Source: Bacteroidota bacterium | GTDB lineage: Bacteria > Bacteroidota > Bacteroidia > Bacteroidales > B18-G4 | Assembly: GCA_018831055.1 (NCBI GenBank) | Contig: JAHJRE010000071.1 | Location: 1-33,111 of the forward strand | Length of the DNA: 33,111 nucleotides | Direction of reading: 5' to 3' | In this document: in pieces, positions 32,146 through 33,111 of the stretch | How positions within the stretch are numbered: the stretch's first letter is position 1 | Layout of the letters: the number at the start of each line of letters is the position of its first letter | Notes under the pieces: model-generated | The model's database searches: none | What the model was told of the DNA's origin: nothing | The model's input: only the letters and a program-made list of their open reading frames with translations | Translations under genes and position numbers: made by a program

Positions 32146-32484
32146 TTATTCTATCCCTTCAATCCGGTCTATATAAACGTTAGTAAGTTTATGTGAATCT
32201 GATACTTTTATTATTTCATCCCAGTTTTTATTAAGGAAACTATACAATTCCTGTATTTTCATGTTTCCTATTTTCAAGTGAATTACTTTTGGTTTATCTT
32301 GAAACAAAACTTTAGTTGAAAAATCGGTATCCTTTGTAATAATGGTAAGATTGTTCTTTATGGCATATTCAAATTTCTCATTATCAGTCATGTTTTCGTT
32401 AATATCAAAAACATGAATAAAAAAATCACTTTTCCATATACTGAAATAGTATGGCAAGTTTGCGTCAATAATGTATTTGGTCAT
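32146..32484 (-). CDS. DUF5615 PIN-like toxin-type protein
   Basis: A 112-aa PIN-like protein of the DUF5615 type: the acidic residue D7 in YIIDANLPYYF, a second acidic pair around ITKDTDFST (about residues 54-62) and a conserved HLKIGNM strand. These are the positions of PIN nuclease metal ligands, but the fourth acidic site is not evident, as usual for the family. It overlaps its DUF433 partner by one base (TAATG), which means translational coupling. Such pairs are assigned to type II toxin-antitoxin-like modules by neighbourhood; activity is not established for this one. Confidence 0.85.
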   Translation of the reverse strand: MTKYIIDANLPYYFSIWKSDFFIHVFDINENMTDNEKFEYAIKNNLTIITKDTDFSTKVLFQDKPKVIHLKIGNMKIQELYSFLNKNWDEIIKVSDSHKLTNVYIDRIEGIE

Positions 32485-32717
32485 TATGCAACAGGTTTAA
32501 TAATAAAGTTTTTATTCATTAAATCCGCTGCGAATTGAAGACAAGCTGTAATATCTTCTTTCTCAAGACCGGGATATTGTTTCAGGATTTCTTCACTGGA
32601 ATCTCCGGCACTCAGGAACTCTAATATCGTGTTAACGGTAATTCTTTTTCCCCTGATAGTAGGTTTACCGTTGCAAATACTATCATCTATAGTTATTCTG
32701 CTTCTATAGTTTTCCAT
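32484..32717 (-). CDS. DUF433 antitoxin-type protein
   Basis: A 77-aa protein: RITIDDSICNGKPTIRGKRITVNTILEFL carries the DUF433 signature (GKPxIrGtRitV), with a small helix-turn-helix-like helical region (SSEEILKQYPGLEKEDITACLQFAADL). It is the upstream partner of the DUF5615 gene, sharing one base at the stop/start, the usual order for this pair. It could repress its own operon, but no operator was recognised upstream (32718-32860 is AT-rich and otherwise unremarkable). Confidence 0.85.
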   Translation of the reverse strand: MENYRSRITIDDSICNGKPTIRGKRITVNTILEFLSAGDSSEEILKQYPGLEKEDITACLQFAADLMNKNFIIKPVA

Positions 32718-32865: not shown

Positions 32866-32954
32866 TCGGGATGGTGATCCCGATTTTCATCGGGAGAACT
32901 CACGACCTCCACGTCCCGGACGTGGCGTCTCGCCTGAGGCGAGACTACATCCCG
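32866..32954 (-). other. tRNA-Pro(CGG)-like element, copy 1 (intact acceptor stem)
   Basis: Read on the minus strand it has a 7-bp acceptor stem CGGGATG/CATCCCG with C1-G72 and discriminator A, as in bacterial tRNA-Pro, and the linker TA. A perfect hairpin GTCTCGCCTCAGGCGAGAC stands in place of the D arm. The anticodon arm CCACGTCCGGGACGTGG has CGG at the anticodon position but C rather than U before it. Then come a variable region AGGTC and a T stem GTGAG/TCAC whose loop is an inserted hairpin, TCCCGATGAAAATCGGGA, with a GAAA loop. A normal tRNA D loop and T loop (GG, TTCRA) are missing, so this is not a working tRNA. Confidence 0.7.
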
Positions 32955-32956
32955 GA

Positions 32957-33004
32957 GAATGAAAAAGCCCACCATCGTCTCAATACCATGAGGCTTAGGT
33001 GGGC
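32957..33004 (-). terminator. Intrinsic terminator after tRNA-Pro-like copy 2
   Basis: On the minus strand GCCCACC (33004-32998) pairs with GGTGGGC (32973-32967), with an inner CTCA/TGAG pairing, followed by TTTTTCATTC. It begins 4 nt after the discriminator base of copy 2 and so closes that unit as a tRNA gene would be closed. Copy 1 has lost this hairpin: its downstream DNA has only a TTCATCC/GAATGAA stem without a T-tract. Confidence 0.75.
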
Positions 33005-33008
33005 GAAG

Positions 33009-33097
33009 TCGGGATGGTGATCCCGATTTTCATCGGGAGAACTCACGACCTCCACGTCCCGGACGTGGCGTCTCGCCTGAGGCGAGACTACATTCCA
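33009..33097 (-). other. tRNA-Pro(CGG)-like element, copy 2 (decayed acceptor stem)
   Basis: Identical to copy 1 in the D-arm hairpin, the anticodon arm and the T-loop hairpin. Its 5' acceptor strand reads TGGAATG instead of CGGGATG, giving one mismatch and one wobble with CATCCCG. A terminator hairpin follows 4 nt after the 3' end. Identity in the hairpins with changes only in the acceptor strand suggests that the hairpins, not tRNA function, are what is kept or copied. Confidence 0.65.
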
Positions 33098-33111
33098 GAG
33101 AATGAAAAAGC

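Follow-up and report, generated by a model that had tools for sequence, protein, structure and literature searches.

Ssn proteins are site-specific single-strand GIY-YIG nucleases associated with NTS repeats in Neisseria, and SLX1 is a structure-specific endonuclease. To our knowledge, the UPF0213 proteins have no link to tRNA relics. SegB of T-even phages is a free-standing GIY-YIG homing endonuclease that cuts in tRNA genes (PMC13096335). This enzyme prefers the motif RAWTSGAAC, whose reverse complement, GTTCSAWTY, corresponds to the T-loop consensus, and it drives the tandem amplification of a tRNA together with its own truncated gene (PMC13096335).

The stretch of DNA analyzed here (the window; 33,111 bases, equal to the whole of contig G000:C71) carries, on the minus strand near the contig end, a tRNA-like element in two tandem copies with 143-bp spacing. 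The promoter type upstream of tRNAs suggests that the host is a member of the Bacteroidota. It is probable that these copies are orphan relics of tRNA-Pro(CGG) and members of a class, spread across the phylum, of tRNA relics with hairpin substitutions; the formation of such relics would involve breakage by a GIY-YIG protein and subsequent repair.

Anatomy and origin of the tandem relics

Copy 1 is composed of an acceptor stem, a hairpin that takes the place of the D arm, an anticodon arm, and a T stem with a hairpin in its loop (Table 1); on the minus strand it reads CGGGATG TA GTCTCGCCTCAGGCGAGAC G CCACGTCCGGGACGTGG AGGTC GTGAGTTC TCCCGATGAAAATCGGGA TCAC CATCCCGAC. The D-arm, anticodon-arm and T-loop structures described in a first-pass annotation of this DNA are present on that strand, and minimum-free-energy folding of the strand returns precisely this cloverleaf (−47.9 kcal/mol, z −4.6, ensemble frequency 0.83). 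None of 200 shuffled sequences folded as well, and folding with DNA parameters gave a z of −5.5. Copy 2 matches over 33004-33111 with 98% identity to copy 1, and the contig ends inside it. The D-arm replacement, also written TCTCGCCTCAGGCGAGA, is found in both copies. The combination of a tRNA relic and a terminator is shared with loci L189, L121 and L228.

Table 1. Features of the tandem tRNA-Pro(CGG) relics at the end of the window
Feature	Position	Strand	Basis or remark
Copy 1, tRNA-Pro(CGG) relic	32867..32954	minus	97% over 32 nt against the G004 tRNA-Pro(CGG); fold
Acceptor strands GGGATG/CATCCC, copy 1	32953-32948 and 32873-32868	minus	
D-arm palindrome GTCTCGCCTCAGGCGAGAC, copy 1	32927..32945	minus	Paired as GTCTCGCC-TCA-GGCGAGAC; supplants intact CGCAGCCCGGTTAGCGC
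Anticodon arm CCACGTCCGGGACGTGG, copy 1	32909..32925	minus	Paired as CCACGTCC-G-GGACGTGG; normal for tRNA-Pro(CGG) except U33C
T-loop palindrome TCCCGATGAAAATCGGGA, copy 1	32878..32895	minus	Paired as TCCCGAT-GAAA-ATCGGGA; supplants T-loop residues GAATC
Intrinsic-terminator-like hairpin GCCCACC...GGTGGGCTTTTT	32962..33004	minus	After copy 2, between the copies; read from sequence
Copy 2, second tRNA-Pro relic	33010..33097	minus	Palindromes as in copy 1; differs at 1 of 92 aligned columns (acceptor)
T-loop palindrome, copy 2	33021..33038	minus	Palindrome search of the genome
D-arm palindrome, copy 2	33071..33087	minus	Palindrome search of the genome
Tail of a further terminator (GCTTTTTCATT)	33100..33111	minus	Contig end; read from sequence

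The element is a dead copy of a tRNA-Pro(CGG) gene, as established by homology outside the substituted loops. The acceptor stem is kept, and the conserved core is up to 97% identical over 32 nt to the tRNA-Pro(CGG) genes of relatives. Compared with the intact G004 tRNA, palindromes have been substituted for two segments, namely the D arm and the T-loop residues. The genuine tRNA-Pro(CGG) genes of relatives carry the anticodon arm CCACGTTCGGGACGTGG, from which the arm in the window departs only by U33C; the earlier statement that all three arms had been lengthened is therefore overstated, as it applies to the substituted D arm and T loop but not to an ordinary anticodon arm. ARAGORN called no tRNA on the element, strict and permissive Rfam searches returned nothing for it, and the GG of the D loop and the TTCRANTC T loop expected of a functional tRNA-Pro(CGG) are missing, both loops having been replaced by palindromes. 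The assembly has 36 tRNA hits, none of which is an intact tRNA-Pro(CGG). The model discussed below would place this gene just past the contig end, where another unit or an intact tRNA probably lies.

The full element has no further copy in its own genome beyond the two at the contig end. A search for the exact element in 84,980 genomes yielded only chance matches, in high-GC actinobacterial sequences. Directly downstream of the relic array, a DUF433 and DUF5615 gene pair (32146-32717, minus strand) displays a toxin-antitoxin-like arrangement, and its DUF5615 partner is PIN-like.

Palindromes and relics elsewhere in the genome

Both palindromes of the window recur in the same genome outside tRNAs, the D-arm palindrome in two exact copies and one copy with a single mismatch (contigs C16, twice, and C43) and the T-loop palindrome in four identical and two similar copies. 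The first-pass annotation had suggested that such palindromes might be recognized by a REP-type transposase or a nuclease, and had proposed a search for TnpA-REP (Y1) genes near other copies. The single Y1 gene of the genome, a 154-aa ORF (C221:1884-2228), resides on a different contig, where none of the own-genome palindrome copies found is located, which leaves a REP/TnpA-REP link unsupported. The nuclease half of the suggestion fared better by position, as in very many genomes a small GIY-YIG ORF immediately precedes relics of this kind.

Palindrome-bearing pieces of tRNA occur at four other loci of this genome. Contig C37 harbors two tRNA-Met pieces with CCCCGATAGCTATCGGGG, and C43 (L068) contains a tRNA-Asp relic with TCTCACCTCAGGCGAGA in place of positions 38-51, located approximately 300 bp from an intact tRNA-Asp in the opposite orientation; tRNA-Asp relics in genomes G225 and G187 (L199 and L197) use the same position. 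At C165:1-280 (L070), two tRNA-Pro-like units of 119 bp stand in tandem, with palindromes at the anticodon and T arms and a terminator, and on C135 the end of the contig truncates a tRNA-Pro piece. The units on C165, which have no nuclease ORF, are orphan arrays like those of the window. A profile of the small GIY-YIG family has only two matches in the genome, on C135 and C37, both beside relics, and a third PF01541 match belongs to a much longer reading frame.

Several occurrences of related palindromes have other surroundings. At L059-L063 of this genome, the TCCCGAT palindrome is also part of a dispersed CACAATAGGCACAACCTG...CACAATAG repeat that has no relation to tRNA, and on C198 (L072-L074) TCCCGCCTCAGGCGGGA directly follows the end of an ORF resembling the C-terminus of a group II intron maturase. 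TCCCGAT-NNNN-ATCGGGA palindromes are present in IMG/VR viral contigs (L021-L025) with no tRNA detected nearby, and scans of viral contigs recovered the CCCGAT palindrome outside any tRNA context.

Homologous relics and discrete insertion

Copies of tRNA-Pro(CGG) with a hairpin at the place of the D arm, built from differing but mutually compensating arms, were observed in five genomes and represent five families; besides the window, they occur in G252, G347, G059 and G021. The closest analogue of the window is locus L189 (G252:C10). Behind its intact tRNA-Pro(CGG) come two successive pairs of GIY-YIG ORF and relic; the first relic is a full-length tRNA-Pro copy in which CCCCGCCTGTGGCGGGG stands for the D arm and a further hairpin lies in the T arm. 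The copies in G347, G059 and G021, with TCCCGCCTCGGCGGGA, CCCCGCCACGGCGGGG and TCCCGC...GCGGGA at the D-arm place, were exposed by a covariance model (R1) that otherwise recovered mostly real tRNA-Pro in other genomes.

Folding and covariation across homologues, proposed earlier as a check, bore out the pairing: the D-arm stem is 95% paired in six tRNA-Pro sequences, with both-side changes at two pairs, and the stem of tRNA-Val relics, at 94% pairing, has four pairs changed on both sides and a covariation score above all 500 shuffles, although these numbers describe rather than prove a structural constraint, because the alignment sets were partly picked for hairpins. As to whether homologues possess normal loops, the D-arm hairpins are kept paired, but several tRNA-Pro(CGG) relics retain a normal T loop. 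Among three tandem tRNA-Thr units in G252, one T loop is empty (GGGTTC directly followed by GAGTCCC) and two contain a clean 26-bp palindrome at that site, which indicates that palindromes arrive as discrete insertions.

Association with GIY-YIG genes

A search combining a tRNA D loop with a CCCGAT palindrome found matches in 17 of the 393 genomes of the order; in several of these the matches formed tandem arrays, including one in G244 (G244:C2, L114) with seven pattern copies at 84-bp spacing upstream of tRNA-Met. At L114, each 84-bp copy comprises the tRNA-Met 5' half plus a hairpin; the copies precede the intact gene, which has two GIY-YIG units downstream. The order of elements that recurs across the class is an intact tRNA, a terminator, a GIY-YIG ORF, a tRNA relic with a hairpin, and a terminator. 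The ORF between intact tRNA and relic encodes approximately 80-100 aa and is, in the class although not on the window contig, a free-standing gene beside tRNA genes that matches PF01541 at 2e-15; its best solved-structure matches are UPF0213/SLX1-like GIY-YIG proteins (PDB 1zg2, 1ywl and 4xlg). A profile built from six members matched 139 of 393 genomes of the order and 155 of 395 genomes of the phylum, with one genome sampled per species and mostly the best-scoring loci read.

Within the 112 usable ORF contexts, an intact same-strand tRNA is present no more than 450 nt upstream in 81, and a GC-rich hairpin follows the stop codon within 80 nt in 75, compared with 5.9 expected by shuffling. In an ORF-matched control, such a hairpin followed 72 of 109 GIY-YIG ORFs versus 15 of 103 other ORFs at the same loci (p 9e-15). 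The downstream stretch aligned to the upstream tRNA better than 20 shuffles in 63 of 77 cases. Fifty of these 63 aligned relics, covering 12 tRNA species, contain a hairpin of at least 6 bp, versus 12 of 52 intact tRNAs; two or more hairpins are found in 12 relics and none in 13. The 5' half is missing from most relics of the class, and at least 18 of the 63 aligned relics include the stop of the GIY-YIG ORF within tRNA-derived sequence according to a local-alignment test, as exemplified by a stop in the D loop in which ...SSVG* is encoded by AGC TCA GTC GGT TAG. Outside the order, a hairpin inside a tRNA-matched relic follows 27 of 39 ORFs, including cases in the single-contig genomes G688, G584 and G737; the arrangement is thus not an assembly artefact.

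The site of substitution is specific to the tRNA. For the class as a whole, hairpins usually replace the anticodon arm, as in Val, Met, Ala, Thr, Pro(GGG) and most Asn relics; they occupy positions 38-51 or 51-60 in Asp relics and the D arm in Pro(CGG) relics. Several palindrome families are used, and TCCCG...CGGGA ends are common to 29 of 56 distinct hairpins. Members of the GIY-YIG gene family also occur in another arrangement, seen at the tRNA-Arg loci L203, L208, L213, L222 and L225, where the ORF comes ahead of an intact tRNA or extends into its 5' part and no palindrome is present. Searches of phage and plasmid records gave no good match to the GIY-YIG ORFs, with only two weak matches to Staphylococcus phages. 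No description of the tRNA/GIY-YIG/relic arrangement was found in the literature, chiefly open-access, a result that does not by itself prove novelty.

Proposed origin and alternative explanations

These observations suggest that hairpin-plugged relics behind GIY-YIG genes constitute a little-known selfish unit living off tRNA genes, of which the window copies are most likely orphan relics. According to this model, the relic would usually be the 3' component of a repeating unit (intact tRNA with terminator, GIY-YIG ORF, relic with hairpins, and terminator), the end of the ORF often running into the D arm of the relic. We infer that the GIY-YIG protein acts as a SegB-like nuclease that breaks DNA in or near tRNA genes, and repair of the break may duplicate the tRNA and the ORF to produce tandem units. 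Palindromes of dispersed families took the place of the D arm and T loop in the window relic, and its ORF may have been lost or may be located past the contig end. No GIY-YIG ORF is present in the window or on its contig, and the 5' side of copy 2 falls beyond the contig end; the link to the nuclease is therefore made, for these two copies, by homology and analogy. The occurrence of some GIY-YIG ORFs upstream of an intact tRNA without palindromes, at several tRNA-Arg loci, speaks against the model, as does the lack of a hairpin in 13 of the 63 aligned relics.

The hairpins might serve as the recognition element of the nuclease itself, or might render the dead copy unlike the living tRNA in sequence and so prevent recutting or recombination. 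The T-loop palindrome of the window destroys the T-loop consensus that matches the SegB motif. Homing immunity as the sole reason for the hairpins is doubted, since the intact tRNA of each unit retains its site and should stay cleavable. The shared TCCCG...CGGGA ends, the SLX1-like structure matches and the case of Ssn and its NTS repeats favor direct recognition of the hairpin. On a more speculative note, it is possible, although we would not call it probable, that a GIY-YIG gene of approximately 80 codons and a relic together form minimal mobile units, which would multiply by cutting tRNA loci and regenerate the intact tRNA each time, with the TCCCG...CGGGA hairpin recognized by the nuclease as single-stranded or cruciform DNA.

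The main rival is the passive insertion of mobile palindromes resembling REP or Rickettsia palindromic elements, for which dead tRNA copies would be safe landing places because their loops tolerate hairpins, the GIY-YIG gene being an uninvolved neighbor. The presence of the same palindromes outside tRNA relics and in viral contigs, the use of several families, and the clean 26-bp insertion in two of three tandem copies in G252 all fit such a process. However, the position of the hairpin is nearly constant for each tRNA across families and classes (the anticodon arm in Val, Met and Ala, 38-51/51-60 in Asp, and the D arm in Pro-CGG), hairpins are in excess after GIY-YIG ORFs relative to neighboring ORFs, and about half of the distinct hairpins share the same ends, so that we regard passive insertion as rather unlikely.

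A functional tRNA-like RNA with all loops closed, produced by every tRNA-plus-terminator unit and serving as a rigid decoy or regulator, is more doubtful still and has little probability. The very stable cloverleaf, the terminator after the unit and the compensatory changes agree with it, but DNA-level palindromes would leave an identical signal, the majority of relics, missing their 5' half, are unable to adopt a cloverleaf, and the ORF frequently extends into the relic. The first-pass annotation had favored a rigid RNA whose T loop is closed by a GNRA tetraloop; none of the 32 listed CCCGAT hairpins in a tRNA context is of the GNRA type, their loops being variable (AGCT, AAAC, TTTC, GCAT and others), and U33C is absent from other tRNA-Pro(CGG) relics. 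With neither feature conserved, the rigid-RNA reading is weakened.

Two further explanations are highly improbable. The relic could be the integration scar of a larger element that used a tRNA attachment site, its displaced 3' end having been left behind. An intact tRNA upstream with a displaced 3' half downstream is the classical layout, and integrases are known to use the anticodon loop, where the hairpin is often located, but only one ORF of approximately 80-100 aa separates tRNA and relic, it encodes a GIY-YIG nuclease rather than an integrase, and 12 of 63 relics have two hairpins. Ordinary decay of a tRNA duplicate, whose hairpins would have formed by chance or through local template switching, which can perfect imperfect hairpins, accords with the evident tandem duplication and loss of tRNA function, but it has scarcely any likelihood given the fold statistics (z −4.6 and −5.5; 0 of 200 shuffles), the dozens of parallel cases in a census that already disfavored it, and the same palindromes elsewhere in the genome, which were thus probably not made locally. 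The earlier view that ordinary decay would not yield such arms was upheld. The palindromes are discrete, and compensatory changes preserve their pairing among homologous relics.

If the break-and-repair model is correct, a very common and apparently undescribed selfish unit would be added to bacterial chromosomes, involving a GIY-YIG family in more than one third of the genomes sampled in the phylum. It would link solitary GIY-YIG genes, short dispersed palindromes and tandem tRNA pseudogenes, all of which are poorly understood, and would offer a testable prediction on what small GIY-YIG nucleases cut. The class also calls for caution in annotation: ORF ends overlap tRNA relics, such repeats tend toward contig ends, and ARAGORN calls some altered copies tRNAs (L226 and L227).

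Comparison with known systems

Like SegB, the class pairs a small GIY-YIG enzyme gene with adjacent tRNA genes, and its tandem units are consistent with amplification. Unlike SegB, it is chromosomal in a bacterial phylum, its proteins have approximately 80 aa with no obvious DNA-binding domain, and a tRNA relic with palindromes lies downstream, whereas neither palindromes nor hairpins are mentioned for SegB (PMC13096335). The ORF family resembles the UPF0213/SLX1-like proteins, which provide its best solved-structure matches, but no partner protein was seen for it here. With Ssn, it shares the small size of a GIY-YIG enzyme; the dispersed short NTS repeat that serves as the Ssn target may have a parallel in the TCCCG...CGGGA palindromes, although the pairing of repeat and enzyme is positional only in the present case. 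REP/REPIN sequences with their RAYT (TnpA-REP) and Rickettsia palindromic elements are likewise short dispersed palindromes, some of them inside genes; in contrast, the palindromes described here have no RAYT nearby, occupy fixed tRNA positions and accompany GIY-YIG genes.
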